Positions 8,337-50,364 of a DNA stretch of 64,000 nucleotides are shown in pieces. A program made the translations under genes and the position numbers. The notes under the pieces were generated by a model. That model saw nothing but the letters and a program-made list of their open reading frames with translations, had not been told where the DNA came from and searched no databases. This DNA is from an uncultured Geobacteraceae bacterium (GTDB taxonomy: Bacteria; Desulfobacterota; Desulfuromonadia; Geobacterales; Pseudopelobacteraceae), in NCBI GenBank assembly GCA_903875605.1, contig CAIQWT010000087.1, positions 62,001 through 126,000 of the forward strand, given 5' to 3'. The first letter of the stretch is position 1. Each line of letters starts with the position of its first letter.

Positions 8337-8361
8337 GGAGATGGGTGCAGAAAAACCGTTA

Positions 8362-8401: not shown

Positions 8402-8432
8402 AATACATCGTGGAACCTCTGTGTAAATTTCT

Positions 8433-13954: not shown

Positions 13955-15148
13955 ATGCGAATCCTCTATATCGATGATAAACCGGACATACGAAATCTAT
14001 TACAGCGCTATCTGACTTCATGGGGCTATGAAGCGGTTGGTGCATCGGATGGTGAGGAGGGTTGGCAACTGATTCAGTCGCTACACCCCGACATCGTCAT
14101 TACCGACTGGATGATGCCGGGCCTTAACGGCCTGGAGCTGTGCAACCGCATTAGAACGTCGGACATTCCCACCTATATATATGTGATCTTGCTTACCGCA
14201 CGGAATATTAAAGAGGATCTGATTGTCGGCATGGAAGCCGGTGCCGATGACTTTATTGGAAAACCGTTCGAGAAACTGGAGTTAAAAGCCCGTCTCAAAG
14301 CTGCTGCCCGCATCATCTCTCTGGAACGCACCCTGGAAGAGAAAAACAGCAAGCTTGAGGAAGCGTACAACGTCATCAAGGACGACCTTGAAGCCGCTGC
14401 CAGAATTCAGCACAGCCTGATTCCTCAAAAAATAGAGCACTTCGGCGGGATTACTTTTGATTGGTTATTCTGCCCTTCGCTGTTTGTTGCCGGTGACATA
14501 TTTAATATTGTTCGCCTGGACGAAAAGACGCTCGCCTTTTACCTGCTTGATGTAAGCGGTCACGGCATACCTGCCGCACTTCTTTCAACCACTCTCAGTC
14601 GTGTGCTGACACCGACACCAAACTTTGCCGGGCCAATGCGGCATTCGCTGGCAGTACCTCCCTTCTACCGTATAACTGCGCCACGAGAAGTCGTTTCCGA
14701 ACTAAATGGACGTTTTATGAACGACGATGTCCAAACACAGTATTTCACTATAGTGTACGGCATTATCGATATACACTCTGCGGCAGGGACTCTTACTCAG
14801 GCCGGCCATCCCTCGCCGATTCATCAGTCAGCTGATGGAACTGTTCGCTTGATAGGTGATGGCGGTTTTCCTGTCGGAATGTTTCCAGAGGCTGATTATG
14901 AAGAGCATCCTTTTAGTATCAATGTAGGTGAGCGACTGTTTCTCTATTCCGACGGTATTACCGAATGTCGCGGTAACGATGGAGGAATGTTTGGCATCGA
15001 CCGGTTACTGAAGATTATTTGTGACGGCTACCGGATGTCGCTGCGTAATTTGATGATCAGCATTGAACGGGAACTTGCCGTATTTCAGGGCAGTTCACAG
15101 TTTGATGATGACATTTCTTTGTTGGTAATGGAAAGAAAGGAGGAATAA
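13955..15148 (+). CDS. Response regulator PP2C (SpoIIE/RsbU-type) phosphatase
   Basis: 397 residues. The receiver domain has acidic Asp7/Asp8 (YIDDKPD), phosphoacceptor Asp51 (VITDWMMPG) and Lys103 (FIGKPF). A coiled coil (ERTLEEKNSKLEEAYNVIK) leads to a PP2C domain with metal-binding motifs VAGDIF, LLDVSGHGIPAALLS, LFLYSDGITE and FDDDISLLVM. Such proteins remove phosphate from STAS antagonists after the receiver is phosphorylated. A STAS protein and an RsbW-like kinase follow in the same operon, so this is probably the phosphatase of a local partner switch. Its TAA overlaps the next ATG by one base. Confidence 0.88.
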   Translation: MRILYIDDKPDIRNLLQRYLTSWGYEAVGASDGEEGWQLIQSLHPDIVITDWMMPGLNGLELCNRIRTSDIPTYIYVILLTARNIKEDLIVGMEAGADDFIGKPFEKLELKARLKAAARIISLERTLEEKNSKLEEAYNVIKDDLEAAARIQHSLIPQKIEHFGGITFDWLFCPSLFVAGDIFNIVRLDEKTLAFYLLDVSGHGIPAALLSTTLSRVLTPTPNFAGPMRHSLAVPPFYRITAPREVVSELNGRFMNDDVQTQYFTIVYGIIDIHSAAGTLTQAGHPSPIHQSADGTVRLIGDGGFPVGMFPEADYEEHPFSINVGERLFLYSDGITECRGNDGGMFGIDRLLKIICDGYRMSLRNLMISIERELAVFQGSSQFDDDISLLVMERKEE

Positions 15149-16314: not shown

Positions 16315-16340
16315 TCAAATACAGAGATGGGGGACTTAAC

Positions 16341-16676
16341 ATGTCAATCAATGTAACACAGGAAACAAAGGTAACAGTTATAACGCCTGCCGGACGTTTT
16401 GACGCGCTGATGGCGAAAGAGTTCAAAAATTGTATTGGAGAGCTGATTGAAAAACGGCAGATTATGATCGCCATTGATATGACAGCTATAGATTTTATTG
16501 ACAGTTCAGGACTTGGTTCCCTGGTTGGAGGTTTGAAGGGCATTGCCAAAGAAACTGGGGAGATAAGGATTGCCGGCCTGTCGCCAGAAGTACGGACTAT
16601 CTTTGAACTGACGCGCCTGCATCGAATTTTTGATATTTACGAGAACATAGAAACTGCGCGTGCCAGCTTTGTGTAG
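16341..16676 (+). CDS. STAS-domain anti-sigma factor antagonist
   Basis: 111 residues, one STAS domain and nothing else. The phosphorylation loop is IDFIDSSGLGSLVGG, where the second Ser is the usual target. The C-terminal helix region is LTRLHRIFDIYENIE. Proteins of this type bind an RsbW-like kinase when unphosphorylated. The phosphatase (13955) and kinase (17071) that would set its state are in the same operon. GATGGGGGA precedes the ATG. Confidence 0.9.
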   Translation: MSINVTQETKVTVITPAGRFDALMAKEFKNCIGELIEKRQIMIAIDMTAIDFIDSSGLGSLVGGLKGIAKETGEIRIAGLSPEVRTIFELTRLHRIFDIYENIETARASFV

Positions 16677-16694
16677 TTGCGAAAGGGGGAAATA

Positions 16695-17066
16695 ATGGAA
16701 CGGGGCGAACGTCCTTGGGGCACATATACAGTCCTTGACGAAAAAAGCAACTATAAGATTAAACGCATTGAAGTGCTGCCAGGGCAGCGTCTCTCGCTGC
16801 AGAAGCATCATCATCGCAGTGAACACTGGATCGTGGTATCCGGCACGGCAATGGTAACTTGCAACGGCAAGTTGTTTCAGATCAACGTCAATGAATCCAC
16901 CTATATTCCAATCGGCAGCCACCACCGTCTGGAGAACCCGGGTAAAATCTTATTGGTGATAATTGAAGTACAGAACGGCGAATATCTTGGCGAAGATGAT
17001 ATTGTCCGCTTCGACGACGACTATCACCGTTGCGATTCTGAAATAAACGCACAATCCGGCGAATAG
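16695..17066 (+). CDS. Mannose-6-phosphate isomerase type II cupin domain
   Basis: 123 residues: MERGERPWGTYTVLDEKS, KRIEVLPGQRLSLQKHHHR, SEHWIVVSGTAMVT and HRLENPG are hallmarks of the C-terminal cupin of bifunctional ManC/AlgA. The His-rich loop HHHRSEHW and a later Glu form the metal site. The nucleotidyltransferase half is not fused here; a separate one lies upstream. It should interconvert fructose-6-phosphate and mannose-6-phosphate for GDP-mannose supply. ATG 16695 follows AAGGGGGAA, so it is preferred to a TTG six codons upstream. Confidence 0.88.
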   Translation: MERGERPWGTYTVLDEKSNYKIKRIEVLPGQRLSLQKHHHRSEHWIVVSGTAMVTCNGKLFQINVNESTYIPIGSHHRLENPGKILLVIIEVQNGEYLGEDDIVRFDDDYHRCDSEINAQSGE

Positions 17067-17070
17067 CCCC

Positions 17071-17481
17071 ATGCTCCACTACTCAATTGAAATACCCGGC
17101 ATTCTTGATTCACTGCGTGTCGCGGCTCCATTTACGGATGCCGTTCTTCATGAACTCCCTGGAATGGAAGATCGTGACAAACTGACCCATGACCTGCGGC
17201 TGGTTTCCAGCGAAGCGCTAACCAATGCCCTGCGCCACGGAGAGCGTACAGGGGCTCAGATAAAGCTCGCATATACTCTGTACTCTGACAAGGTTGTGAT
17301 TACTATTACTGATCATGGGATTGGTTTCGACCCCGACACGGTGGAACTGCCTGATTTTGAAGAATGCCCTGAAGGTGGCTACGGAATTTACATTATGAAA
17401 ACTATTATGGATGAAATGCGATATGAAAAGACATCCGACGGCAACAATCTTATCCTCACCAAGAGCTGGGCGGTTACCTGA
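17071..17481 (+). CDS. RsbW-like anti-sigma factor serine kinase
   Basis: 136 residues of a GHKL ATPase without a DHp domain. The N-box is SSEALTNALRHGE, the G1 box is ITDHGIGFDPD, and GGYGIYIMKTIMDEM forms the ATP-lid end. RsbW proteins phosphorylate a STAS partner and sequester a target. The cognate STAS protein is probably the one at 16341, with the PP2C protein at 13955 opposing it. No sigma factor is encoded nearby, so the final target is unknown; it may be a biosynthetic enzyme. Confidence 0.85.
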   Translation: MLHYSIEIPGILDSLRVAAPFTDAVLHELPGMEDRDKLTHDLRLVSSEALTNALRHGERTGAQIKLAYTLYSDKVVITITDHGIGFDPDTVELPDFEECPEGGYGIYIMKTIMDEMRYEKTSDGNNLILTKSWAVT

Positions 17482-17482
17482 T

Positions 17483-18484
17483 ATGTTTCTATTCCGAATA
17501 ACAACATATGTATTTACTTTCATCTTACTGTCTGGCTGCAGTGGTGTGCCACTCATTCTACCTTCCGGTTTTGTTGCCGAACGGGATGTAAAATCTTTAG
17601 AACCCGCCCCTCCGGAAGTAATGCAGGCTTTTGAGGCCGGACTCAACAAAGAATACCTACTGGGTCCCGGTGACGTTGTTGAGATCGTAGCGCCGGTGTA
17701 TCCTGAAATTGCCGGAGAACAGACACTAAGTCCCGAAGGATTTATGACGGTCTACCCAGTCGGCAGCGTTCAGGTGGGTGGACTGAGCAGAAGCGATGCG
17801 GAAGCGCGCCTGAAAGCAGCGTTGGCAAAATACTTTTCCCCATTGTCCCTGACTCTGCGGATAAAGTCTTTCGAGAACAATCAGGTACTGGTGCTGGGCA
17901 AAGTAGCAACTCCAGGAGTTGTCAAATTCAGGTCCCGTCCCAATCTATTGGAAGCATTGGCCAAATCCGGAGCCTTCTCGCCTACCGGTCTTGATCGGCG
18001 ATTTACCAACTGCGAGATAATCAGGGGTAAAGATCAGATTCTGCGTATCTCAATTGACGAACTGCTCAAAGGCGGGGCTAATGGGCGTAACATAGATCTG
18101 GCCAACAACGACGTCGTTTATATTCATGAGAATAACGACAACAATGTTTATGTCATGGGAGAAGTCAGCAAGCCGGGAGCTTACGAAATGCGAACCTCCA
18201 TGTCGCTCCTGAATGCTGTCATGCTGGCCGGCGGACCAACCGAGGACGCTGTTACCAGTGAAATAATGTTGGTGCGTGAAAAAGCAGGAGAAGCGGAGCC
18301 TCTCAAAATAAGTCTCAGCAAAATGGTAGAATCATCCGACTATGGTGGCAATGTCGTGCTGGCTCGCAACGATATTATCTTTGTACCGAGACGCGGCATA
18401 GCGAAATTCAACTACTACCTGAGGATGATTAATCCTTTTACGCAGATGATTATTTTCAGCAAGGCACTTGGCCTTTACAAATAG
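17483..18484 (+). CDS. Wza-like polysaccharide export lipoprotein
   Basis: 333 residues from ATG 17483, one base after the preceding stop. A lipoprotein signal ends in LLSGCSG, with lipidation at the Cys. The poly_export domain is seen as YLLGPGDVVEIV and PEGFMTVYPVGSVQVGGL. Two SLBB-like segments follow (NQVLVLGKVATPGVVKFR and NVYVMGEVSKPGAYEMR). Wza proteins form the outer-membrane exit pore for capsule or EPS. The Wzz-like partner begins six bases after the stop. An in-frame start 24 codons earlier lies inside the kinase gene and is rejected. Confidence 0.9.
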   Translation: MFLFRITTYVFTFILLSGCSGVPLILPSGFVAERDVKSLEPAPPEVMQAFEAGLNKEYLLGPGDVVEIVAPVYPEIAGEQTLSPEGFMTVYPVGSVQVGGLSRSDAEARLKAALAKYFSPLSLTLRIKSFENNQVLVLGKVATPGVVKFRSRPNLLEALAKSGAFSPTGLDRRFTNCEIIRGKDQILRISIDELLKGGANGRNIDLANNDVVYIHENNDNNVYVMGEVSKPGAYEMRTSMSLLNAVMLAGGPTEDAVTSEIMLVREKAGEAEPLKISLSKMVESSDYGGNVVLARNDIIFVPRRGIAKFNYYLRMINPFTQMIIFSKALGLYK

Positions 18485-18490
18485 GACTCC

Positions 18491-20737: not shown

Positions 20738-20743
20738 CAAGGG

Positions 20744-22102
20744 ATGGACAAGATCATCCTCCTTTTCATGCTGGCAAGCATCGCCCTGCTCATGTACAAA
20801 GAGCCGAAGGAGCTGTTCCTCTATTTTTTCCTGCCGGTTTTGACGATGATGCCGGTTTATTATCAGACCAAGATTGTTTCCGGCATACCGGAAATCAGCT
20901 TCTGGAGCGCAGTGCTGCTGCCGATCGCTTTCGTCTGGATTCTCAACAAACACGGCGAAGGATACCGGTTTTCTCCTCTTGATCTTCTCATCCTTCTGCA
21001 TCTAGTCCTCGTATTTTCCGGTGAATGGCACAATACTAGCTACAAAGAAGCCCAGAAGGTATTTTATAATGACCTGACCATTCGACTCCTCCCCTGTATC
21101 ATGGCACGAGCCTGGTTCATGGACTCTGACAGCCGTATGAAAATGTTCAAAATAATAATTTTGTGCGGCGCGATAGTAGCGGCGTTTCAACTCATCGAAT
21201 TTCGTTTATGGTTCAACGTGTTTGACGATATTTTGAGGAAAATCTGGCCGCACTCCGTTCCTTGGGGTGGTGGTATGAAGCGCGGAGGACTTAAACGTGC
21301 TGCAGGACCTTTCGGCCACCCGATCTGCGCTGGTTATTTTTTCACTATGTTTGTACCGCTGGCGATCTGGCTTTGGAAAAACGACTATTTTGAGCTAAAA
21401 AAACATGGTCTCTGGATGTTCCTTCTTTGCGTCACGGGTGCTATAACCTCAATTTCGCGAGCTCCCATTGCCGGAGTTTTTATGGGATTCGTTATTATCT
21501 GGTACGGCTGGACTAAGAACAAGGCTGTAGCAACCATGTTTCTGGCCAGCTTCCTTATTGTAGCATCCGTTCTTGTCATCCCTAAATTTATCGCCTACGT
21601 CAACGTCAGTCGCGCCACCGCAGAGACTGAAGATCAGCGCAATGCCGCCTACAGGGCGGAACTGCTGGACAATTACAAAGAGGTAATTGCCGAAAAACCG
21701 CTGTTCGGCTGGGGGCGCTTTGGCGTACCGGTGGTCAAGGGTCAGGACTCAGTTGACAATGAATATCTGGTCATAGTGCTGGCGTCCGGCTATATGTCAC
21801 TCTATGCCTATCTCGCAAGTATGCTCTGGGTCCTGGTCAGGTTGAGCATGTATGCTATTTTCAGCGATCCATCCTCACGCGAGGGGCGCCTGGCCTGGTG
21901 CCTGTTGGCCGGTTTCATCGCCGCCGCATTAACACAGACAACCGTCTATGCCGGGACACAGACGATTCAGTTTTTCTATATGCTTATGGGATTTTCGGAA
22001 GGCCTGGTACAGCTGAAGCATTTTGAAAGCCAGGAACATCCGGCTGTTGCAAGAACTCTGGGAGGAAACGATTATGAATATAACTTTTCTCGTACCCTGT
22101 AA
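20744..22102 (+). CDS. O-antigen ligase/Wzy-like polysaccharide polymerase
   Basis: 452 residues with about ten to twelve hydrophobic segments, starting MDKIILLFMLASIALLMY. A large loop holds SVPWGGGMKRGGLKRAAGPFGHP. The later periplasmic loop contains EKPLFGWGRFGVP and VDNEYLVIVLASGY, the typical Wzy_C/O-antigen ligase signature. It should join repeat units or attach polymer to an acceptor on the outer face of the inner membrane. The next gene starts within its last 29 bases. Confidence 0.85.
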   Translation: MDKIILLFMLASIALLMYKEPKELFLYFFLPVLTMMPVYYQTKIVSGIPEISFWSAVLLPIAFVWILNKHGEGYRFSPLDLLILLHLVLVFSGEWHNTSYKEAQKVFYNDLTIRLLPCIMARAWFMDSDSRMKMFKIIILCGAIVAAFQLIEFRLWFNVFDDILRKIWPHSVPWGGGMKRGGLKRAAGPFGHPICAGYFFTMFVPLAIWLWKNDYFELKKHGLWMFLLCVTGAITSISRAPIAGVFMGFVIIWYGWTKNKAVATMFLASFLIVASVLVIPKFIAYVNVSRATAETEDQRNAAYRAELLDNYKEVIAEKPLFGWGRFGVPVVKGQDSVDNEYLVIVLASGYMSLYAYLASMLWVLVRLSMYAIFSDPSSREGRLAWCLLAGFIAAALTQTTVYAGTQTIQFFYMLMGFSEGLVQLKHFESQEHPAVARTLGGNDYEYNFSRTL

Positions 22103-39264: not shown

Positions 39265-39624
39265 TTATACGTTTTCTTTGCCAAGTATTGCGAGAAGAGC
39301 GCCCACACCATCGATTCTGGAATTAAACAGCTGCACTCTCTGATCAAAGCGAGTCAGGTGAAAAGTCCGCCTTACATGTTCGTTCAGTCCGACAAAAACC
39401 ATAACACCACCCTTTGAAGCAAGCTCACGACTTAAGAAACTACAAGTTCCCAGGCCTGTGCTGTCAATCAGTTCCATCTGACTCATGTCGAGGAGAATAT
39501 GCAGATATTTTTTTTCCATCAATCTGGAAATCTCCGTTTTAAGGTCTCCTACCGAAGTTGCCACCAGATTACCTATCAGCTTTAAAATGATAACATCATT
39601 GTCTATTTCAAGTTTCAATTCCAT
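39265..39624 (-). CDS. STAS-domain anti-sigma factor antagonist
   Basis: 119 residues from ATG 39624, preceded by GAGGTG at seven bases. A single STAS domain with the phosphoacceptor loop MELIDSTGLGTCSFL; Thr replaces the usual second Ser and could still be phosphorylated. The C-terminal part has HVRRTFHLTRFDQRVQLF. It lies between the phosphoesterase and GspE-type ATPase genes on the same strand. It is a second free antagonist, besides the one at 16341, that could bind the RsbW-like kinase. Confidence 0.88.
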   Translation of the reverse strand: MELKLEIDNDVIILKLIGNLVATSVGDLKTEISRLMEKKYLHILLDMSQMELIDSTGLGTCSFLSRELASKGGVMVFVGLNEHVRRTFHLTRFDQRVQLFNSRIDGVGALLAILGKENV

Positions 39625-39660
39625 AAACTGACACCTCATGTATTATTAATTGAGAGATTA

Positions 39661-40626
39661 CTACGGCGTGTGCAGCGTGTAAACGGTGATTTCCGGTGGA
39701 CAGAAAAAACGCGCGGCAGCCGTTGAAAAACCGGTCCCTCTACTGGTATAGCCGCACATCTTCCGAAACGCCCATGCTCCGGACAGGTAACGATAGCTAC
39801 AACTTGCATTAGCAATAACAGGAAAACCGCCTGGCAGACAGATCTGTCCACCGTGGGTGTGTCCGCACAAGTAGAGGTCAACGCCCAGTTGTTCCGCTTC
39901 AACAATTATCTCCGGCGAATGGGCCAGCAATAGTGTGCATATATCAGGTGATCTCGTTCCGATAGCACGAACAAGATCGTGAGCGCCATAGAAATGGGGA
40001 TCATCAACGCCAGCCAAGGTCAGGGAGTCCTTTCCATGTTCGATGGAAACACGCTCGTTCAACAGCATGCAGACACCCATCCGCTCAAGTGCCGGTACCA
40101 ATTCCAAAAAATCATGGTTACCCAGAATACCATAACAGCCATCTCGAGCCGAGGAAAGCTGCTCCACAATCGGTTTCATCACCGACAGACAGGGGAGATA
40201 ATCGTCATTTGTTTCAAAACGATAGTCCCCGGTCATTATCGCCAGATCATAGTCCAGTTTAGTTAGCGTAGATATTATGCCGGCTCCGCCATCGATCAAA
40301 GCATCTGCGTGCAGGTCTGAAAGCTGCACGATGCGGTAACCGTCAAACGCCTGTGGCAGATTTGCAAGTGTAATTTCTACCTGCACTACCTGATAGTCAG
40401 CACAATTGTTTCTGGCACGTCCCGCCAGTCCGCTCACCTTGAGTAGCGCTTCCAGTATGACCCGAATAGTGTGAATATTTTCGAAGTGAAGCGAACCGCG
40501 TCCGGCTCCGAACAGAGCCGCAGAATGATCTACCTGAAGCAGCATCCGGCGCTCGGCAGATTCACGCCCCATACGCTCGAACAGCGGGATCAGGTCAGCA
40601 GAGGTTGTGTCAGCTATAGAATGCAT
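39661..40626 (-). CDS. Calcineurin-like metallophosphoesterase
   Basis: 321 residues. All metal-site motifs are present: LSDLHADALIDG (DxH), IMTGDYRF (GD), GILGNHDF (GNHD), LLLAHSPE and CGHTHGGQ (GHxH). The N-terminal 80 residues are not part of the catalytic fold. Relatives include UDP-2,3-diacylglucosamine hydrolases and cyclic nucleotide or phospholipid phosphoesterases; no membrane helix is visible. The substrate is unknown. It is six bases from the nucleotidyltransferase-like gene, within the EPS operon. Confidence 0.85.
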   Translation of the reverse strand: MHSIADTTSADLIPLFERMGRESAERRMLLQVDHSAALFGAGRGSLHFENIHTIRVILEALLKVSGLAGRARNNCADYQVVQVEITLANLPQAFDGYRIVQLSDLHADALIDGGAGIISTLTKLDYDLAIMTGDYRFETNDDYLPCLSVMKPIVEQLSSARDGCYGILGNHDFLELVPALERMGVCMLLNERVSIEHGKDSLTLAGVDDPHFYGAHDLVRAIGTRSPDICTLLLAHSPEIIVEAEQLGVDLYLCGHTHGGQICLPGGFPVIANASCSYRYLSGAWAFRKMCGYTSRGTGFSTAAARFFCPPEITVYTLHTP

Positions 40627-40632
40627 GGGCGA

Positions 40633-42075
40633 TTACACTGCAGAAGGAAAAGTTATAGCGGCCTTCAATAATATTTTCAGGTCGGACCAAAGCGTACGGG
40701 TTACTGCGTGAAAATTTTCCCTGACATGCTGTTCGTCAACACTTCCAGGCAGCTCTCCATCCACCTCCCATAGATGATACAGCCCGCGCGCCGTATCAAG
40801 GCCGAAGATAGAATCCTGCTCCCGCAGTTCCGCCTCTCCCGCAGGTATCGGCGCAGCGCCCACCAGCGTCAGATTCCCCATGACAACCGCAACAAGGCCA
40901 GGCCAGCGACGCAGCAACAGCGGACCAAAGTTGAATTGCCGTAAATTAAACGACATCCGGGGTTTTTCGCCAACCAGGGTTTTCATGCGTCGGTTGCCCA
41001 GACAGCGTTCCTGACGGATAAGGGACGGAGCTAATAAAGATACAAAAAAGAGTGGCAGTCCTAACGGCAGGAGCAGCAGCATCAGGATTGCAGCCAACAG
41101 CGTACCGCTAAGATCTCCTGATGAATGTTCTTTTCCGTCGCCAATATCACCAAGGATAAAGGCATCAGGAGAGGTGACTGTTGCTCCGTTACACAGGTTC
41201 ACAAGAGTACGCCCCTGAACAGCCATGGCATTTAGCTCCGTATGGGCTCCGGTGGCAGTACCGGACATAATCAGACTGTCGCATATCAGGTCACTGTTAT
41301 TGACTAGGCAGTAAGGCGAAATGACTGCATTGGGGCCGATCTGACCATTACCGTATATTTGGCAATGGCTGCCGATAAATAGCGGCGCGACCAAACGAAC
41401 GTCAGGAGAAATATGCACGTGATCTCCGATCCAGACACCATCAGCTCTTAAACTGGCAGCAATACGGCTGCCGCCCAGCCTGCCGTTCAAAACATCACGC
41501 TGAGCTGAGATAAAGCCTGTCAGGTCAGATACTGTCTGTGATTGAAGATTTTTTCCATCATGCGGGGACAATGACACCTTTTCTCTTACCAGCTTTATCA
41601 GCTCGTCAAACGATTCAAAACGGTTCTCCTCGAGCAAGGACAGCAGCTTGGCAGCATCAATAACAATAAAATTATGCTCCGGCGGCACCCACGAAGGAGC
41701 ATTTTCCGCTGCGGTAACTTCTTTCAGAAAAGCTGGCAATTCGTTTGAAACGATCATATTGCCAGGAAGACAGATAACTACGCCGGAAATACCGTGGAGT
41801 GCCGCCCGAAGCATACGTTGCAGTCCACCCTGCTCTCTAACCGCCGACATAGTCAAAGCACATCCCCAGCGCTCACCATTGCCGAAGTGGCGCACAACCT
41901 CTTCCGGCCGGTCATCGCACAGAAGCGTCACAACCTGAATCCCGCTTGCGGCAAGCGACTCTACAAGATGTTCAACCATCGGCTTACCTGCTAACGGGAG
42001 GAGAAAATCGGGGCAGAGCGAGCGGAGCGGAGAAAGGGCTAGCGCCTGATGAAACGGGAAAATAAGGGCTTTCAC
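40633..42075 (-). CDS. Degenerate nucleotidyltransferase-hexapeptide protein with sugar-transferase-like tail
   Basis: 480 residues. The N-terminus aligns with NDP-sugar pyrophosphorylases (FLLPLAGKPMVEHLVESLAA; VVTLLCDDRPEEVV), but the GxGTR nucleotide signature is missing: the start reads IFPFHQALALSPLRSLCPDF. Hexapeptide repeats run through about 215-320 (WIGDHVHISPDVRLVAPLFIG... in part). A membrane segment follows (LLAAILMLLLLPLGLPLFFVSLL). The C-terminal 120 residues resemble the end of an initiating sugar transferase (MGNLTLVGAAPIP; TLWSDLKILLKAA). Its ATG overlaps the stop of the WecG-STAS gene. It may be a scaffold or sensor rather than an enzyme. Confidence 0.7.
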   Translation of the reverse strand: MKALIFPFHQALALSPLRSLCPDFLLPLAGKPMVEHLVESLAASGIQVVTLLCDDRPEEVVRHFGNGERWGCALTMSAVREQGGLQRMLRAALHGISGVVICLPGNMIVSNELPAFLKEVTAAENAPSWVPPEHNFIVIDAAKLLSLLEENRFESFDELIKLVREKVSLSPHDGKNLQSQTVSDLTGFISAQRDVLNGRLGGSRIAASLRADGVWIGDHVHISPDVRLVAPLFIGSHCQIYGNGQIGPNAVISPYCLVNNSDLICDSLIMSGTATGAHTELNAMAVQGRTLVNLCNGATVTSPDAFILGDIGDGKEHSSGDLSGTLLAAILMLLLLPLGLPLFFVSLLAPSLIRQERCLGNRRMKTLVGEKPRMSFNLRQFNFGPLLLRRWPGLVAVVMGNLTLVGAAPIPAGEAELREQDSIFGLDTARGLYHLWEVDGELPGSVDEQHVRENFHAVTRTLWSDLKILLKAAITFPSAV

Positions 42076-43619
42076 TGGTCTCTCCGGTCTGTAAGAATCA
42101 GCTGGTCATCCGTAATAGTAAACAGGCGATCCAGACGAGTCAGGTGTAGTAACTGCAGTACCGGTTCATTCGGTGCACAGAGAATGCTCTTATTGCCATG
42201 TTTCGCAACATGCCGCTGGATACGATGGAATGCCACCAATCCGCTGCTGTCGGCAAATTCAAGACAGGTGAGGTCAAGAATGCAGTTGTGAACTTCCAAT
42301 TTTGGCAGAAGTTCGTCAAATGGAAAATTTTTCATGGCCAGCGCATCAAGTCTTCCTCTAAGTGCAACAATTACAGTGCCGTTACGCAAGGATGTGAGCG
42401 TGTATAGTTTTTTGTCAGTCAAGCGCTCTGCGCGTATGCGCGCCATAGCCATTTTTTGGTCGCCAAAGAGGCGTTCGTGAAATATATCAGCTACACGGTT
42501 AAAGCGGAAAAATTCTTTTATCAGGTCACTTACCTCTACCAGACTGAGCTTACCCTTCTCATCCAGATCACGTCTCCACAGGCGCACCAAAAAACCGAGA
42601 CCTGAGGAATCAATCATCTGAACCTGTTCAAAGTTGAGTATCAAATGCCGACATGTTCGATATGTCTCTTCGATGCACGGTGCCAGTTCTTTAACAGCCA
42701 GGGCATCAAGCCGTGCCGGCAGCAGAACGATACAGACATTCTCTTCAATCCGCTGAATAGCTTTATTGCTGTCCAGCGGAACCGGAACAGGCGTCACAGT
42801 TTTCTGCCAGCGGGCAGATCGGTATATCCGGATGGCTGGCCAGGCGTGCAGGGCAAACTTGATCATACCAACGGCATAGCGTTTCCAAAGGCGACGCGGT
42901 TCCATCAAAATACGGTAGATCCATTCCAGTCCGGCTTTTTGCACCCAGAGCGGCGCACGCGATACCGTACCGACTATGAATTCGAAGGTTCCGCCAATGC
43001 CTATCGAGACAGGCACTTTCAAGCGTGGAGCGTTGCGGGCAAACCAGAGTTCCTGTTTGGGATTGCCAAATGCGATTAACAGTATGTCAGGACGGGCTGC
43101 GTTAATCTCGGCAATGATGGCAGCGTCCTCCACCTCAAAATCGGTCAGATGTTCCCCTTCGGTGTAGACGAAAGGCGCACTGACACCGGCAATCTTCAAT
43201 CCGGGGTTGTTACGGACAAGAAGGTCGGCAGCACGTTGCCCTACATCACCATTTCCCCCAAGAAAAAAAAGAGATGCGCCGCGCAGTGCCGCTTCAGCAG
43301 CCAGAGCAGGCACCATATCAGCGCCGGTAACCCGCTCTTTCAGAGGACAGCCAAGAAAGCGTGACATCCAGACAACCGGCATGCCGTCGGCGGTCACCAT
43401 ATCCGCCCGACGCAGAATATCAAGTAATTCGGGGTGACGAATGCCACCCTGCTGCCAGGAAAGTGTGTTGACGATAAAATCGACGTTGACGGTAGCTACT
43501 TCGCGAGGGACAGCGTCACTCTTGAATTCATCAACCATAGCGAAAATCCGCTCCACCGCTTCAGCCAGGGTCAGATTATCAATGGGAATTCCCAGAATGA
43601 TAACGGTATCACGCAACAT
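42072..43619 (-). CDS. WecG/TagA glycosyltransferase fused to two STAS domains
   Basis: 515 residues. Residues 1-265 are a WecG/TagA/CpsF (GT26) enzyme: TVNVDFIVNTLS, DGMPVVWMSRFLG, LFFLGGNGDVGQRAAD, DILLIAFGNPKQELW and SIGIGGTFEFIVG. These enzymes add an N-acetylmannosaminuronate or similar sugar to an undecaprenyl-linked primer. Residues about 285-385 form a STAS domain with MIDSSGLGFL (Ser338/339), and about 405-510 a second with EFADSSGLVAF (Ser458/459). Both keep the phosphorylatable Ser. There is no frameshift between the parts. It overlaps the next gene by ATGA and shares one base with the initiating transferase upstream. Control of the transferase by an RsbW-like kinase is inferred. 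Confidence 0.92.
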   Translation of the reverse strand: MLRDTVIILGIPIDNLTLAEAVERIFAMVDEFKSDAVPREVATVNVDFIVNTLSWQQGGIRHPELLDILRRADMVTADGMPVVWMSRFLGCPLKERVTGADMVPALAAEAALRGASLFFLGGNGDVGQRAADLLVRNNPGLKIAGVSAPFVYTEGEHLTDFEVEDAAIIAEINAARPDILLIAFGNPKQELWFARNAPRLKVPVSIGIGGTFEFIVGTVSRAPLWVQKAGLEWIYRILMEPRRLWKRYAVGMIKFALHAWPAIRIYRSARWQKTVTPVPVPLDSNKAIQRIEENVCIVLLPARLDALAVKELAPCIEETYRTCRHLILNFEQVQMIDSSGLGFLVRLWRRDLDEKGKLSLVEVSDLIKEFFRFNRVADIFHERLFGDQKMAMARIRAERLTDKKLYTLTSLRNGTVIVALRGRLDALAMKNFPFDELLPKLEVHNCILDLTCLEFADSSGLVAFHRIQRHVAKHGNKSILCAPNEPVLQLLHLTRLDRLFTITDDQLILTDRRDQ

Positions 43620-44332
43620 TAGTACGCCCCTTTGCCAAACAGAACCGCCGGTATTGTTTTCAGCAGCAGCATAATGTCAGACCAAAAGGATCGACTTTCA
43701 ATGTACTGGGCGTCCAAACGCACCTGCCCCTTGAAATCTATGTTGCTCCTGCCACTAACCTGCCAGATGCAGGTAATTCCTGGTACGGCGTCAAGCCTAC
43801 GGCGGTCGTCCAGAGTGTATTCAGCAACTTCGCTAGGAATAGCAGGGCGCGGTCCCACCAGTGACATATCCCCTTTCAACACGTTCCAGAGTTGGGGCAG
43901 TTCATCGATAGAAGTTTTGCGGATAAAAGCGCCGATTTTGGTTATACGTGGATCTTTCTTCATTTTGAAGATGACACCCGCACTGGATTCATTTTGTTCC
44001 TTCAGCTTTTCCAGCAGTTTTTCGGCGTTGACCACCATAGAGCGAAACTTGTACATCCTGAACAACTTTCCCCAGCGGCCAACCCTATTCTGTGAAAATA
44101 ACACCGGACCGGGCGACTCCTTATAGATCATGAGAGCCACAACTCCGAACAGTGGTGCCAGCAGAATAAGCATCGTCCCGGCCACAGCTATGTCCATCCC
44201 GCGCTTGGCAAATCCAGCTGCTCCGACCACTGTGCGCCAAGCCAGCTTTTTGTGTAGGAAATAGAGTCTCGCACGCAGACCACCAGCGGAGTATGTTTCG
44301 TACAGAGTATCAAGCAGTTGCTGGTCTTTCAT
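43619..44332 (-). CDS. Initiating undecaprenyl-phosphate sugar phosphotransferase
   Basis: 237 residues of the bacterial sugar transferase domain, with one membrane helix (AGTMLILLAPLFGVVALMIY) and no N-terminal multi-helix region. Catalytic motifs are MYKFRSMVVNAE, KTSIDELPQLWNVLKGDMSL and VGPRPAIPSEV. The tail RSFWSDIMLLLKTIPAVL is typical. It transfers a sugar-1-phosphate to undecaprenyl phosphate, the first step of repeat-unit assembly. WecG, fused to STAS domains in the next gene, would add the second sugar. GGAG lies before the ATG. Confidence 0.92.
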   Translation of the reverse strand: MKDQQLLDTLYETYSAGGLRARLYFLHKKLAWRTVVGAAGFAKRGMDIAVAGTMLILLAPLFGVVALMIYKESPGPVLFSQNRVGRWGKLFRMYKFRSMVVNAEKLLEKLKEQNESSAGVIFKMKKDPRITKIGAFIRKTSIDELPQLWNVLKGDMSLVGPRPAIPSEVAEYTLDDRRRLDAVPGITCIWQVSGRSNIDFKGQVRLDAQYIESRSFWSDIMLLLKTIPAVLFGKGAY

Positions 44333-44353: not shown

Positions 44354-44656
44354 TCATTCATAGCGCACTTCAATTCGCCCCATATAAGATTTAAGTATTT
44401 CCACCTGTGCAAGTACCTCCGCCAGATTGGCTGCCTTCGCTGCCAGCTCCATCTCCCCTCCTATATTGGAAATCACCGAAAAGCCATAACAGCCACCAGA
44501 GCCCTTCATACCATGGGCAATGCTGCGGATTTGCTTAAAATCCCCTTGTGCCGCCAGCAACCTGAGCTGTACACATTCCTCACGTTTACTTTCAAGGTAC
44601 TGCGGTATTATATCATCAAGATCTGCATCACACACGACTACGTCATTTTCTAGCAT
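44354..44656 (-). CDS. Histidine phosphotransfer (HPt) protein
   Basis: 100 residues, a four-helix HPt domain with phosphoacceptor His48 in SIAHGMKGSGGCYGF. AAAGGAA lies before the ATG. It is 41 bases downstream of the hybrid kinase gene and is the expected relay partner for that kinase's receiver. Confidence 0.9.
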   Translation of the reverse strand: MLENDVVVCDADLDDIIPQYLESKREECVQLRLLAAQGDFKQIRSIAHGMKGSGGCYGFSVISNIGGEMELAAKAANLAEVLAQVEILKSYMGRIEVRYE

Positions 44657-44697: not shown

Positions 44698-47358
44698 CTA
44701 TGAAAGGACAGCATAAGCATCGACCACTTCCAACAGCCTGGTCTTATGAATCGGTTTAGTCAGGTGCTCAGTGCAGCCGGCATCGAGGCTTTTTTGACGA
44801 TCCTCCTTGAGCGCGTTGGCTGTCAGGGCAATAACCGGCAGTTCGCTGCGCCCGGTTTCCAGCTCCCATTGCCTAATCAGCCGAACAGCTGTATATCCGT
44901 CCATGACCGGCATCTCCATATCAAGCAGTACCAGATCGAAATTTCCCTCTTTGATTTTGGCAAAAGCTTCTTCGCCATTTACCGCAGTTGCCACGACATG
45001 ATCAGTTTTCCGGAAATAGGCACACATAACTGTCCGGTTGTCCTTATTATCGTCGACTAGCAGGATTGAGAGGGATCGAATCGGCTTATCAGTTCCATTA
45101 ATTTCCTGCATAAACTCCACAGGTTTCACAGTCGGCGTGGTAAAACGACAGGTAAAATAAAAACAGCTCCCCTGCCCCAGTGCGCTTTCCACATCGATAT
45201 TTCCCCCCATCATTTGAGCAAGATGTTGCGAAATTGCCAATCCCAGCCCGGACCCACCGTAGTTGCGTGTTGTGGATGTGTCTGCCTGGCAGAACTTTTC
45301 AAATATCGTCTTCAGCTTGTCCGGTGCGATACCTATACCGGTGTCAATTACGGAAAATTTCAGCATGACTTCTGAACCGGACACCGAAACCAGTTCTACC
45401 AACAGGCTGAGGCTACCCTGTTCAGTGAACTTAATAGCATTACTAACCAAGTTAAGTAGAATCTGGATTACTCTTAAAGAATCCCCCAAAAGCCAATCCG
45501 GGATGTCCACAGATAGTGACGATGTGATATTAATATTTTTTTGATTCGCCTGTCCAATCATCATACCCATTATTTGTTGAATACAATCTGAAACTTTAAA
45601 CGGTGCCGACTCAAGCGAAAGCATTCCCGCCTCAATTTTTGACAAGTCCAGGATGTTATTAATCAGCCCCTGCAGCGCTTCACCGGCTGAACGTAAAACC
45701 GTAAAATATTCGGTTTGCTCATTGCTCAACTCGGTTTCCACAAGCAGATCAGTCATACCGAGCATGGCATTGATCGGTGTGCGGAGTTCGTGGCTCATAC
45801 TGGCCAGAAATTCACTCTTGGTTTTATTCGCCTGTTCAGCCTCAATCTTCGCCAGCTTGTTATTTTCGGCCACTATGATGAGCTTTTCCTGCAGCTCTTT
45901 TTGAGCGGTGATGTTTTCCTTAACACCCACAAAATGGGTAACAACACCGGATTCGTCCCAAATTGGTGATATGGACGTCAGCTCCCATATGAAACTGCCA
46001 TCCTTGTTACGATTGTGGAGTTCACCTCGCCATTCACGCCCGGACTTAATGGTTGTCCACAGATCCTTGTAAAATGATTGCGGGTGGTTACCCCCTTTTG
46101 TGATGCGGGGATTCTGCCCTATGACCTCCTCGGAGGTAAAACCGGTGATTTCGCAGAATTTGGGATTGACGTACTCGATAGTACCGTCGTAGTCGGTTAT
46201 AACAATGGATGCTGGACTATGCTGCACGGCTGATGAAAGCTTGCGCAGGGTGCGCTCCATGCTCTTTGTTTTGGTGATATCCCGGAGCATACCCACTGCA
46301 TGCCATTCCCCATCCAATAGTGCCGGCGAAAGTGACAGGGCTACTTCAATCTCCTGACCATCTTTTCTTATGGCGAAGCGTTCAAGCGTTTTACCCAAAG
46401 CATTGCCGGTACCGGAACGCAGAAATTCAGGAAATGCTGCATAAAAAGCGGCATGATAATGTTTCGGAACCAACAGATCGTGGAGGTCTTTACCGATCGC
46501 CTCCTCGGGAGAATACCCCAAAATTCGCACCGCTGCGGAGTTCCAGTAGCTGATAACACCTCTAGGATCCATCATCAAGATGGCGTCAATTGCTGAATCA
46601 GAAATGCTGCGCAACCTCTTCTCACTGGTTTCAGCAGCCTCCTTGGCCACAGTCAGTTCACTCATACGTTCGGATATAACGAGTGCCATGGAGTTGAAGG
46701 CTACCCCCAACTGTCCAAGGTCATCTTTTCCTTCCGGCATTTCCGGTGGCGACAGATTGCCATCGGCAATCTGTAAACTGGCATTGATAAGCTTCGTTAG
46801 GGATCGGGTCATCCAGTGTCCGACCAACAGCAAGACAAGTGTGGAGAGAACAACTTCGAGCGCCGCGATGCCAAAACCCTGGATCAGCAGCACCCGACGG
46901 CCGGCAATTATATGCGACATATCAAAACCGTAATGAAGTGTGCCAAATGACTGATTTTCAAGCAGTATTGGCAATGCTACGTCATATCTCATTTTGTTTT
47001 CAAAAAGGTGCAGTTCTTTTTGAGGCGCCGGCAGTGGCTTGTCAAAGGGCCACCCATTGGACGCAACCCGCTTACCTGAACGGTCTTCTATGACTATATA
47101 ACTGACACCGCCTGACTTGCGACTTTCATTAAGAATCGCCTGAACTGTTGAATAGTCTCTCTGAGCCAGAGGAGCGGTCAGAGCGGCTAGTAATACTGGT
47201 GTATATTCCTCAACCTGAATATGCGTCTGATTAGACATGATGTCATTCATCAGGCGCATACTGTTGGAGACCAGAATCAGCAGCATCAGCATTTCCACTC
47301 CTATTGCCAGAAACAGAAGGCGCCCACGAGTGGTACGACGGAAGGGAATTTTTTTCAT
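44698..47358 (-). CDS. Hybrid sensor histidine kinase with HAMP and two PAS domains
   Basis: 886 residues. Membrane helices at about 14-32 and 160-180 enclose a periplasmic sensor. A HAMP domain follows (TRSLTKLINASLQIADGNLS). Two PAS domains lie at about 245-365 (SAIDAILMMDPRGVISYWN) and 370-485 (SPASIVITDYDGTIEYVNPK). HisKA has His523 (ASMSHELRTPINAML); the ATPase domain has NLVSNAIKFTEQG, DTGIGIAPD and GGSGLGLAI. The C-terminal receiver has LLDMEMPVMDGY and LTKPIH. A separate HPt protein is encoded 41 bases downstream. The ligand is unknown. Confidence 0.92.
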   Translation of the reverse strand: MKKIPFRRTTRGRLLFLAIGVEMLMLLILVSNSMRLMNDIMSNQTHIQVEEYTPVLLAALTAPLAQRDYSTVQAILNESRKSGGVSYIVIEDRSGKRVASNGWPFDKPLPAPQKELHLFENKMRYDVALPILLENQSFGTLHYGFDMSHIIAGRRVLLIQGFGIAALEVVLSTLVLLLVGHWMTRSLTKLINASLQIADGNLSPPEMPEGKDDLGQLGVAFNSMALVISERMSELTVAKEAAETSEKRLRSISDSAIDAILMMDPRGVISYWNSAAVRILGYSPEEAIGKDLHDLLVPKHYHAAFYAAFPEFLRSGTGNALGKTLERFAIRKDGQEIEVALSLSPALLDGEWHAVGMLRDITKTKSMERTLRKLSSAVQHSPASIVITDYDGTIEYVNPKFCEITGFTSEEVIGQNPRITKGGNHPQSFYKDLWTTIKSGREWRGELHNRNKDGSFIWELTSISPIWDESGVVTHFVGVKENITAQKELQEKLIIVAENNKLAKIEAEQANKTKSEFLASMSHELRTPINAMLGMTDLLVETELSNEQTEYFTVLRSAGEALQGLINNILDLSKIEAGMLSLESAPFKVSDCIQQIMGMMIGQANQKNINITSSLSVDIPDWLLGDSLRVIQILLNLVSNAIKFTEQGSLSLLVELVSVSGSEVMLKFSVIDTGIGIAPDKLKTIFEKFCQADTSTTRNYGGSGLGLAISQHLAQMMGGNIDVESALGQGSCFYFTCRFTTPTVKPVEFMQEINGTDKPIRSLSILLVDDNKDNRTVMCAYFRKTDHVVATAVNGEEAFAKIKEGNFDLVLLDMEMPVMDGYTAVRLIRQWELETGRSELPVIALTANALKEDRQKSLDAGCTEHLTKPIHKTRLLEVVDAYAVLS

Positions 47359-47537: not shown

Positions 47538-47879
47538 CTAGTTTTTAACCAGCGCCAACAACGCACCGCCAATACTTGGCAATATCGGAAATATCCGGTC
47601 TGTTCTAGTCAGCTTGAAGAGAGACCTCACGTTGTCATCGACACCGAATAGAGCAACATTACCATCTTCCCCAACCGACTTCAATACTGAGATAATCCCC
47701 CCCAGTCCGCTGCTGTCTATGAACTCGACCTCGGCCAGATCGAAAGCAATAAGATGATTGCCTGCCTGAACACGCCCGACCATATATTCTCTAAATTCCT
47801 GGATGTTAGTTGCATCCAGACTTTTTTCCAGCGGACGCACGACCAGTACCCCTTGTTGCTGCTGCTCCTCGAATTGCAT
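47538..47879 (-). CDS. STAS-domain anti-sigma factor antagonist
   Basis: 113 residues from ATG 47879, preceded by AAGGGGA at good spacing; a start 37 codons earlier lies in the glycogen phosphorylase gene and is rejected. The STAS loop is VEFIDSSGLGGIISVL, and the C-terminal part KLTRTDRIFPILPSIGG. It follows the glycogen phosphorylase gene by 34 bases on the same strand, so they are probably co-transcribed. It is the third free STAS protein in this window. Confidence 0.9.
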   Translation of the reverse strand: MQFEEQQQQGVLVVRPLEKSLDATNIQEFREYMVGRVQAGNHLIAFDLAEVEFIDSSGLGGIISVLKSVGEDGNVALFGVDDNVRSLFKLTRTDRIFPILPSIGGALLALVKN

Positions 47880-47913
47880 TGTTGTTCCCCTTGCTGAGTT
47901 ATTTTTCCAACAA

Positions 47914-50364
47914 TTATTCCATACTCCAGATATCCCTTGCATACTCTCGAATGGTGCGGTCACTGGAAAACTTGCCGATGCGGGCAACATTCAGAATCGC
48001 TTTTCGTGTCCACATGTCCGGCTGGGCAAAATCGTTTGCAACGACCGCCTGAACTTCTGCGTAACTATCCAGATCGGCGAGGTGGAAATAGTGATCAGGA
48101 TTATCCAGCAGTGAGTTACGTACCCAGGCAAAAAGATCCGGCTCACCCGGACTGAACATACCGGAGCCGATTACATCCATAACTCTTCGCACGCGTTCGC
48201 TACGCTCGTAAAAATCCCGTGGATTATACCCTCTCCGATGCATCTCGACAACTTCGGCAGTCAGCAGGCCGAATATATAAATATTCTCTCTACCAACCTC
48301 TTCCATAATTTCTATGTTTGCTCCATCCATTGTGCCGATAGTGAGAGCACCGTTCATGGAGAGCTTCATATTTCCAGTGCCTGAAGCCTCCATTCCGGCG
48401 GTTGATATCTGCTCGGAGAGGTCAGCTGCAGGTATTATTTTTTCCGCAAGTGATACCCGGTAGTCCGGCAGAAAGGCAATTTTGATCTGCCCTTTCACAC
48501 GTGAATCATTATTTATTTTATCTGCTACGCAACAAATAAGACGAATGACCTGTTTGGCCGTCCAGTAACCAGGTGCCGCTTTACCGGCAAAAAGGAATAC
48601 CCGTGGCGCAGCAAGGTCTCGACCATCTTCGACTATTGAAAGGTATAGAGAAATAATGTGCAGAACATTGAGCAATTGGCGCTTGTATTCATGCATTCGC
48701 TTCACCTGAACATCAAACAGCGCGCCTGGATCAACCCGAAGACGATTACTGGACCATATATTTTCAGCCAATAACAGCTTGTTAGCTGTTTTAACATCAA
48801 TAAATGACTTTCTGAAGCTGCTGTCATCAGCGTATGGCTCCAAATTACGTAATTGATCTAGATCAGTAATCCATCCGGAACCTATGGTCGAACTTATTAA
48901 ACCTGCCAGACCCGGATTTGCTTTCAACAGCCAGCGTCGAGGGGTAACTCCGTTCGTTTTGTTGTTGAATTTTTCCGGCCACAGGGCGTAAAAATCCGGC
49001 ACCAGATCGGTAGTTACAAGATCCGAATGAAGCTTGGCTACGCCGTTAACCGAGTGACTTCCGACTATTGCGAGGTGAGCCATACGTACCTGTTTCGGTT
49101 CGCACTCTTCGATAACCGACATACGCATCTGACGTGCAAAATCACCCGGCCACCGATTCGCAACCAGATCGAGGAAGCGGCGATTGATCTCATAAATGAT
49201 CTGCAGATGGCGCGGCAAAACCCGTTCGAATAGCGGCACCGACCATTTTTCCAGCGCCTCCGGCATAAGGGTGTGATTTGTATAACCAAGGGTGGCCTGC
49301 GTAAGGCTCCAGGCTTTATCCCATTCAAGCTGTTCTTCATCAACGAAGATTCGCATCAATTCAGCAACTGTGATGGCAGGATGGGTATCATTAAGCTGGA
49401 TGGCAATTCGGGCAGGGAATTTGTCAAGTTCATTGTCGCCATGAGCTTTACGATAGCGCCGAAAAACATCCCGCAGTGAACAGGCCGCTAGAAAATATTC
49501 TTGAAGCAGACGCAGCTCTTTTCCGCTCAATCGGGTATCAGACGGATAGAGAATTTTCGAAATTGTTTCGGAGGAGATTTTCTGCTCTACCGCATGCAGA
49601 TAATCGCCATCGTTAAATATCTTCATGTCGAAATCCTGTGAAGATCGTGCTGAATAGAGCCGCAGATAATTAACGCACGCTCCACCATAGCCGGGTACCG
49701 GTAAATCAGACGGGACCCCGATCAACACCTGCCAGTCGAGCCACATAGGATTGTAGTTGCCATCTCCGTCAACCGCATGCTCGATACGTCCATAAATTGG
49801 CACTATACAGGCTTCCTCTGGACGTTCGATCAGCCAAGGCGAGCCATGGGCAAGCCAGTGGTCAGGCTTCTCCACCTGCCTGCCATTGCGTAGATCCTGA
49901 CGAAACAGGCCGAACTCGTAGAGCAGGCCATAGCCGTAGCCGGCATACCCCAGGCTGGCAAGCGAGTCGAGAAAGCAGGCTGCCAATCGCCCCAGACCAC
50001 CATTGCCAAGCGCAGCATCAGGTTCAACTGCCCTGATTTCCTCGAGATCAACCCCCATGCCGGCAAGGGTATCACGGCAGATGTCCAGCAGCCCCAAATT
50101 GTACAGACTGTTTCCGAGTGCCCGCCCCATCAAAAATTCCATGGAGAGATAATATAACCGTTTGGCTCCGGTGCGACTGTGATGCTCTTCCGTTCTGGCC
50201 ATGCCATCGATCATCTGTTCGCGTATCGCTAGAGATGTGGCGTCAAAGTACTCTCGAGGACTGAGCTTTTCCCCTGAATTACCTAGTGTATAGCGTGCAT
50301 AGTGTTGGAGGGTTTTTGCAAGAGACCGGCTTGAAAGCGTCGGATTGGTAAAGTCTGTGGACAT
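47914..50364 (-). CDS. glgP: Glycogen/starch phosphorylase
   Basis: 816 residues, full length. Typical motifs: YYLSMEFLMGRALGNSLYNLG, DAALGNGGLGRLAACFLDS (split by length in the family), LNDTHPAITVAELMRI, NGVTPRRW and the PLP-Lys site EASGTGNMKLSMNGALTIGT. The enzyme cuts terminal alpha-1,4-glucosyl units with phosphate to give glucose-1-phosphate, a precursor for sugar nucleotides. A candidate promoter lies about 85 bases upstream. CTGGAGA precedes the ATG. A STAS gene follows in the same unit. The protein could feed carbon into the polysaccharide pathways, which is inference. Confidence 0.96.
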   Translation of the reverse strand: MSTDFTNPTLSSRSLAKTLQHYARYTLGNSGEKLSPREYFDATSLAIREQMIDGMARTEEHHSRTGAKRLYYLSMEFLMGRALGNSLYNLGLLDICRDTLAGMGVDLEEIRAVEPDAALGNGGLGRLAACFLDSLASLGYAGYGYGLLYEFGLFRQDLRNGRQVEKPDHWLAHGSPWLIERPEEACIVPIYGRIEHAVDGDGNYNPMWLDWQVLIGVPSDLPVPGYGGACVNYLRLYSARSSQDFDMKIFNDGDYLHAVEQKISSETISKILYPSDTRLSGKELRLLQEYFLAACSLRDVFRRYRKAHGDNELDKFPARIAIQLNDTHPAITVAELMRIFVDEEQLEWDKAWSLTQATLGYTNHTLMPEALEKWSVPLFERVLPRHLQIIYEINRRFLDLVANRWPGDFARQMRMSVIEECEPKQVRMAHLAIVGSHSVNGVAKLHSDLVTTDLVPDFYALWPEKFNNKTNGVTPRRWLLKANPGLAGLISSTIGSGWITDLDQLRNLEPYADDSSFRKSFIDVKTANKLLLAENIWSSNRLRVDPGALFDVQVKRMHEYKRQLLNVLHIISLYLSIVEDGRDLAAPRVFLFAGKAAPGYWTAKQVIRLICCVADKINNDSRVKGQIKIAFLPDYRVSLAEKIIPAADLSEQISTAGMEASGTGNMKLSMNGALTIGTMDGANIEIMEEVGRENIYIFGLLTAEVVEMHRRGYNPRDFYERSERVRRVMDVIGSGMFSPGEPDLFAWVRNSLLDNPDHYFHLADLDSYAEVQAVVANDFAQPDMWTRKAILNVARIGKFSSDRTIREYARDIWSME

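Follow-up and report, generated by a model that had tools for sequence, protein, structure and literature searches.

The stretch of DNA analyzed here, hereafter called the window, comprises 64,000 nucleotides of contig CAIQWT010000087.1 from an uncultured Geobacteraceae bacterium (assembly GCA_903875605.1) and contains, within an exopolysaccharide cluster, the gene of a WecG/TagA-type glycosyltransferase that continues into two STAS domains. The gene lies on the minus strand at 42072..43619 and its open reading frame (ORF), which begins with ATG, encodes 515 residues. Residues 72-248 (42876..43406, minus strand) constitute the Glyco_tran_WecG domain, which matches the whole PF03808 profile (positions 1-168 of 168; Pfam, E 9e-60) and contains the motifs TADGMP and NPKQE together with a conserved EW..R...EP.RLWKRY segment. 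Behind it follow two STAS stretches (Pfam, E 1.9e-23), STAS1 covering about residues 286-395 (42435..42764) and STAS2 about residues 406-508 (42096..42404), both on the same minus strand and with nucleotide coordinates worked out by hand from the residue numbers. Each carries a DSSGL motif, formed by D337-S338-S339 in STAS1 (Ser338 codon at 42606-42608) and by D457-S458-S459 in STAS2, in which Ser458 (codon at 42246-42248) is the conserved candidate phosphosite. An earlier note, made from the letters of this DNA, had described a WecG/TagA enzyme running unbroken into two STAS domains with serines at positions 338/339 and 458/459, and this description proved exact in reading frame, Pfam domains and residue numbers.

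By profile, fold and motifs, the fusion protein is a member of the WecB/TagA/CpsF (GT26) family, for which glycosyl transfer is the predicted activity. It matches TIGR00696 with 140 bits vs a cut-off of 69, and scores under the cut-off of every one of the NCBIfam equivalogs EpsA, TarA and PRK03692. The AlphaFold2 model of the protein, obtained with an input alignment of 26 sequences including that of the window, has a predicted local distance difference test (pLDDT) of 88.3 and a predicted template modeling score (pTM) of 0.88; after the WecG part it shows a long helix (residues 241-273), a weaker stretch around residues 271-290, STAS1 and then STAS2. Superposition with VIA-align places residues 4-217 on TarA (5wfg, Z 26.6), residues 279-398 on SpoIIAA of the SpoIIAB complex (1th8, Z 16.3) and residues 403-504 on RsbV of the RsbV/RsbW complex (6m36, Z 14.6), and the TagA fold is recovered also by Foldseek (7n41, TMt 0.92). 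Both STAS domains of the window protein hence combine the SpoIIAA/RsbV type of fold with an Asp-Ser loop. The fold of the WecG part, its TADG and NPKQE motifs and its arginine-rich C-terminal appendage segment are shared with TagA, TarA and WecG; the catalytic Asp65 of TagA would correspond to D78 of TADG and its Arg214, Arg221 and Arg224 to R236, R243 and R247, residues equated here by motif and not by residue alignment. The solved TagA and TarA chains that we found have 191-198 residues and no STAS, whereas the window enzyme has two such domains behind.

The earlier note also placed a phosphatase, a kinase and free STAS proteins in the same locus, and all of these genes are present. The phosphatase, of the receiver-PP2C (SpoIIE) type and a candidate activator of the STAS switch, is encoded on the plus strand at 13955..15148 (PF07228, E 5.1e-39; PF00072, E 3.6e-28). 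Behind it on that strand come a free STAS protein with a DSS loop (16341..16676; Pfam), a cupin gene and a candidate RsbW-like serine kinase of the HATPase_c_2 type (17071..17481; PF13581, 78.7 bits). The kinase sequence has an N-box (EALTN) and G1- and G2-like boxes. The genes after the kinase are a Poly_export gene, one with a weak AAA_31 match (26.9 bits vs a cut-off of 27) and a Wzy_C gene, the whole stretch spanning 13955-22102. This group lies about 25-28 kb from the fusion gene (the kinase at about 25 kb), on the opposite strand of the same polysaccharide cluster. In the genome, which is 99.25% complete in 109 contigs, the kinase is the top PF13581 match with its 78.7 bits vs 35 for the runner-up, and PF07228 has two matches, the 13955 phosphatase and a receiver-PP2C-HATPase protein on another contig. 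Two more free STAS proteins are encoded on the minus strand, one with a DST loop (39265..39639) and one with a DSS loop (47538..47990), both recognized by Pfam.

Relatives of the fusion and their STAS serines

Relatives were collected by scanning 84,980 species genomes with short peptide patterns, a procedure that misses some of them. The scan gave 31 loci (designated, like the genomes, by L and G numbers where needed), of which 28 entered the alignment with proteins longer than 340 residues; L048 and L050 are truncated where their contigs stop, and L049 has a whole WecG protein without STAS. Nine loci were added from 395 genomes of the phylum, that of the window included, and one of them (L100), identical with the L031 locus, was dropped. 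The final comparison comprises 37 non-redundant rows, namely the window and 36 relatives; the records of the scanned loci name Geobacteraceae, Desulfobacteraceae, Desulfobacterales, several gammaproteobacteria including Haliea/Halieaceae, Victivallales and Marinimicrobia.

Relatives of 512-515 residues at 71-87% identity, together with the 37 rows (window included), rule out that the fusion is a chance product or a frameshift artefact. Its recurrence likewise excludes an oddity of a single genome, though the distribution is patchy: the fusion is found in 2 of the 39 nearest genomes and in 10 of the 395 genomes of the phylum (own genome included in both counts, and one of the ten being the L031 locus), in 2 of 369 genomes of a gammaproteobacterial class (the centre genome included) and in 5 of the 24 genomes of one gammaproteobacterial order. 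A tree of 44 WecG domains requires 2 label changes vs a mean of 8.3 after shuffling, in a topology where several long branches, including L108 and L049, come together; a single origin of the fusion and repeated origins would both be compatible with it.

The two serines are conserved to different degrees. Ser458 of STAS2 is retained in 33 of the 35 rows having this domain and the Asp457-Ser458 pair in 24 of them, vs 21 of 37 rows for Ser338 of STAS1 and 20 of 37 for Asp337-Ser338. Two rows lack STAS2: L044, for which Pfam gives no STAS match whatsoever at E 0.001, and L107, which has a single match, under the cut-off. Conservation of both STAS serines thus fails for STAS1 and holds for STAS2, and it is therefore likely, judging from the alignment, that STAS2 is the switch and STAS1 an optional copy. 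The expression "two phosphorylatable STAS domains" in the earlier note is accordingly supported for the STAS2 serine and too strong as a general rule; serine loss in most homologues, which the note had named as evidence that would speak against it, is not seen in STAS2, and STAS1 lies near that line.

Almost all relatives retain the TADG and NPKQE motifs and the C-terminal segment rich in arginine, with D78 of TADG nearly invariant and R236, R243 and R247 invariant in the alignment. The exception is L108 (9575-11149, genome G170), whose WecG part lacks TADG and NPKQE and which keeps both STAS serines; with a receiver-PP2C-HATPase gene nearby, it is possibly a pseudoenzyme turned regulator. Another variant, L034 (9971-12064), has the WecG-STAS-STAS arrangement with an additional C-terminal NUDIX domain, Pfam reporting one STAS stretch in it, and a Cache-HAMP-PP2C protein is encoded 3 kb from this fusion.

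Linkage to phosphatase and kinase genes

The tightest linkage is found in gammaproteobacteria, where all four loci with enough sequence (L028, L029, L033 and L036) have a receiver-PP2C gene immediately behind the fusion gene and a HATPase_c_2 kinase gene next in line, all three on one strand; by the listed ORF starts, adjacent genes overlap by 4 bp at the closest and are 69 bp apart at the widest, and the kinases have 131-144 residues. No free STAS gene lies between the fusion, phosphatase and kinase genes of these four loci. The phosphatase that follows the fusion is related to the 13955 phosphatase of the window (298-314 bits); Pfam backs the phosphatase of L028 and the kinases of L028 and L033, the remaining assignments deriving from profiles built for this analysis. 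In a further locus, L030, the contig ends 171 residues into a gene that follows the fusion and starts like a receiver-PP2C protein. Elsewhere the phosphatase and kinase domains are joined: a receiver-PP2C-HATPase protein and a free STAS protein are encoded directly before the fusion gene in L105 and 1.4 kb upstream of it in L104, with a short ORF resembling a phosphoglycosyl transferase (PGT) in between, and a receiver-PP2C-HATPase protein is encoded 2.6 kb from the fusion in L108.

We defined as a module a PP2C domain and an RsbW-like kinase domain both encoded no more than 30 kb from the fusion gene and scored the 37 loci ourselves, 17 as having a module, 9 as lacking it and 11 as not scorable. 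The module is therefore present in 17 of 26 scorable loci, which are the window, L022, L024, L025, L026 (genome G007/G433), L028, L029, L033, L034 and L036, together with those of genomes G170, G219, G243, G244, G266, G288 and G401. All 17 have Ser458, and 16 have the Asp457-Ser458 pair; Ser338 is gone in 5 of the 17, among them two of the four gammaproteobacterial proteins with an adjacent kinase. The nine loci without module consist of eight from a single gammaproteobacterial clade (L038-L042 and L045-L047; in L040, L042, L045 and L046 the contig ends within 10 kb on one side) and L037 of Victivallales. The clade is called here Halieaceae-type after four of its members (L040, L041, L042 and L045) and the tree. 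In all nine the Asp-Ser pair is absent from both STAS domains, while Ser458 itself, preceded by Glu, is still there in seven. Besides L021 and L031, considered below, the loci that were not scorable include L027, where a PP2C and a free STAS gene are followed by the end of the sequence, L030, which ends in the presumed PP2C gene, and L023, L032, L035, L043, L044, L051 and L107, which are short or cut.

For comparison, we analyzed with the same profiles eight loci of unfused WecG genes from the same genus or order, initially over 13-20 kb and then over 30 kb or to the contig end; two of them come from one genome (G035), and in four (from G008, G021, G033 and G035) the contig stops less than 10 kb away on at least one side. 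The 13-20 kb covered initially per locus contained no gene for STAS, PP2C or a kinase in any of the eight. Over 30 kb or to the contig end, a STAS gene was found in none of the eight and the combination of PP2C and kinase also in none, while one of them has a PP2C gene alone, at a distance of 19.6 kb. With 48 candidates scored per genome in the 39 nearest genomes, a full-length receiver-PP2C protein of the 13955 type was found only in G000 and G007, which are also the sole two having the fusion; four others match just the PP2C part, with 208 bits at most. Since G000 and G007 share the whole cluster, this co-occurrence amounts to one shared inheritance. An arrangement of another kind is seen in L049 of Parachlamydiales, where receiver, PP2C, HATPase kinase and STAS are contained in a single chain (7220-9295), encoded next to a PGT gene and near the unfused WecG gene.

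A second fusion involves the PGT itself. In L036, the gene at 10340-11320 encodes an N-terminal STAS domain followed by a complete Bac_transf domain, and counterparts are found in L126-L129. Within the gammaproteobacterial order of 24 genomes, this STAS-PGT protein (E 1e-60) occurs in the same five genomes that have the WecG-STAS-STAS protein (E 1e-55), the other 19 having neither at these thresholds. All five STAS-PGT proteins present an Asp-Ser loop. The two fusion genes are 5.4 kb apart in L036 and about 14 kb apart in G435, and lie on separate contigs in the other three genomes; as the five genomes are related, their co-occurrence may represent one event. Going by the known roles of their families, the PGT and the WecG-type enzyme would catalyze the first two steps of the pathway, one after the other.

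A putative partner switch on polymer-initiating enzymes

We consider it likely, with a probability of about 60%, that the genes described above form a partner-switching module in which the polymer-initiating enzymes carry the STAS output in their own chain, with putative phosphorylation of the STAS serine. The fusion protein is probably an early glycosyltransferase of an exopolysaccharide pathway, which its neighbours suggest to be of the Wzy type, and the nearby HATPase kinase and PP2C phosphatase would be the cognate partners of the fused STAS domains. In this scheme, a signal from a histidine kinase (in the window, the candidates are the kinase at 44698 and the adjacent Hpt protein) would reach the receiver of the receiver-PP2C phosphatase, and this phosphatase and the RsbW-like kinase between them would determine whether the Ser458 loop of STAS2 is phosphorylated. 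A phosphate on this loop, or docking of the kinase on the unphosphorylated STAS, would then govern whether the enzyme joins its partner enzymes at the membrane in an active state. STAS1, a second and often degenerate copy, is probably a structural or docking site.

The position of the STAS pair offers a possible route for such control. According to passages of a study on TagA, a founding member of the family (PMC6493773), this enzyme was proposed to alternate between an inactive soluble dimer and an active membrane-bound monomer, and its C-terminal appendage completes the active site and mediates membrane docking. The STAS pair of the fusion is attached right behind the segment corresponding to this appendage, so that docking or the monomer state could depend on whether STAS holds a bulky kinase or Ser458 carries a phosphate.

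The protein families involved are those of known partner switches. The STAS fold with its Ser loop, the HATPase_c_2 kinase and the PP2C phosphatase are shared with the RsbV/RsbW/RsbU and SpoIIAA/SpoIIAB/SpoIIE systems, from which the window differs in having the STAS output fused to an enzyme. A closer parallel is SypA of Vibrio fischeri, described in passages of PMC10120452 as a STAS protein of a polysaccharide locus with a phosphorylated serine that is set by a serine kinase/phosphatase. Unphosphorylated SypA, in the same passages and in others of PMC4517449, promotes biofilm formation below the level of transcription through a protein target not yet known, whereas a differing account in part of PMC8256260 presents SypA as initiating transcription. 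SypA and SypE have in common with the window the presence of STAS, PP2C and kinase inside a polysaccharide export cluster (13955-22102 in the window), and by domain content the receiver-PP2C-HATPase protein and free STAS encoded upstream of the fusion in L104 and L105 constitute a Syp-like set. However, SypA is a free single domain, while the STAS pair of the window is part of a glycosyltransferase, though free STAS genes are also present. By analogy with SypA, the dephosphorylated form would be expected to be the active one, a polarity that is a guess. In Nostoc punctiforme, the parts of PMC8256260 considered here describe HmpU, HmpV and HmpW as a partner-switching set encoded in a locus for hormogonium motility and polysaccharide, and passages of PMC10120452 present the STAS protein HmpV as a separate protein with a downstream target not known.

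The attachment of STAS to a polysaccharide glycosyltransferase has a precedent in Anabaena all4160, which has an N-terminal STAS domain as reported in part of PMC8256260 (crediting Wang et al. 2007). The single N-terminal STAS of all4160 differs from the two C-terminal ones of the window fusion, and on this partial description all4160 may be nearer to the gammaproteobacterial STAS-PGT of L036. Neither a tandem STAS on a WecG enzyme nor its linkage to kinase and phosphatase was found in searches covering open-licence papers; architecture databases may well list the architecture.

A broader reading is that the output of partner switching is the set of polymer-initiating enzymes and not gene expression, with STAS carried by both PGT and WecG enzymes, initiation gated by the kinase and phosphatase, and the fusions naming the class of targets of SypA and HmpV, namely membrane-proximal glycosyltransferases. 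We advance this reading tentatively, rating its chances somewhat below even. The attachment of STAS to the enzymes of what are presumably the first two steps, with kinase and phosphatase genes directly behind the fusion in some bacteria, points to the kind of target sought for SypA and HmpV: free STAS proteins of the SypA sort could act on a glycosyltransferase. The gammaproteobacterial cassette would provide a self-contained three-gene system for studying STAS-controlled polymer initiation, which, if the reading is true, the cell would open or close without new gene expression.

Several observations weigh against a partner switch on the fused enzyme, and some of them favor other explanations. 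The serine of STAS1 is gone in 16 of the 37 rows, and in the eight loci of the Halieaceae-type clade the fusion persists with no module in sight and, in seven of the eight, with Glu at the position of Asp457, which indicates that a tandem STAS can serve without partner switching. The full module lies within 10 kb in just 7 of the 26 scorable loci, the remaining module loci having it at 15-29 kb, and one of the 17 module loci (G170/L108) lacks the glycosyltransferase motifs. The correlation of the Asp-Ser pair with the module rests on few lineages, and because the losses cover one gammaproteobacterial clade and one member of Victivallales, it is an association and not a test across many events. 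Moreover, L021 and L031 keep the Asp-Ser pair and show no module on their readable side of about 30 kb; they were placed among the loci not scorable as their other side ends at about 8 kb, and if counted as lacking the module they would be two exceptions that keep Asp-Ser. The degenerate state of STAS1, the persistence of the Halieaceae-type fusion with Glu in place of Asp457 and the presence of STAS also on the PGT of gammaproteobacteria would all be compatible with a scaffold, in which the tandem STAS docks PGT, the WecG enzyme and other pathway proteins and serine phosphorylation is unused. We regard this scaffold as unlikely, though the least so of the alternatives, given that Ser458 is retained in 33 of 35 rows and that kinase and phosphatase genes lie directly behind the fusion in four gammaproteobacterial loci, a pair found near none of the eight unfused WecG genes.

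Other adverse points concern the partners of the kinase. In the window and in several clusters of Desulfobacterota, the kinase gene is beside or one gene from that of a free STAS protein, and since just one gene separates them in the window, the free STAS 16341 may be the main partner of the kinase. The proposal of the earlier note that the kinase acts on the fused STAS is favored by the gene context in other bacteria and contradicted by nothing in our results, whereas in the window itself the kinase may mainly serve the free protein. The same gene order would suit a decoy or feedback role, in which free STAS 16341 and the STAS of the enzyme would compete for the kinase, the regulator thereby responding to the amount of enzyme while the enzyme itself escapes control; we find this improbable, because the gammaproteobacterial cassettes have no free STAS gene adjoining the kinase, though the four genomes examined carry other short STAS ORFs elsewhere and the fusion need not be the sole STAS partner in these bacteria. 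More improbable still is that the STAS pair directly senses metabolism by binding a small molecule, a nucleotide or a membrane component, as some SulP or MlaB-type STAS domains may do. The superposition of STAS1 on the STAS domain of SLC26/SulP proteins (Z about 15, VIA-align) and weak matches to mlaB_1, under the cut-off, go in this direction, but the Z values are similar or higher with kinase-bound SpoIIAA (and RsbV for STAS2), and the linkage to the kinase/phosphatase module also argues for the partner switch.

Other genes around the fusion

The fusion gene is abutted by that of a Bac_transf PGT (43619..44332, minus strand; PF02397, E 3.1e-67), the initiating enzyme by family. Beyond it on the same strand are the genes of the Hpt phosphotransfer protein (44354..44656; PF01627, E 1e-8) and of the hybrid histidine kinase, in which Pfam recognizes HAMP, PAS-PAS, HisKA, HATPase and receiver domains (44698..47358). 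On the other side, a nucleotidyltransferase-like protein (40633..42075, minus strand; ORF list and Pfam) has a gene overlapping that of the fusion by 4 bp; besides its nucleotidyltransferase-like N-terminus, it shows weak hexapeptide and weak Bac_transf-like matches, both under the Pfam cut-off, and its relatives come after the fusion gene in several loci of Geobacteraceae and Desulfobacterota. A calcineurin-like phosphoesterase (39661-40626, minus strand; Pfam) is encoded between this gene and that of the free STAS protein with the DST loop. The ORF of the free STAS protein at 47538-47990 overlaps the end of a glycogen phosphorylase-like ORF (47914-50364), and its real start is probably further in, since its relatives have 115 residues.

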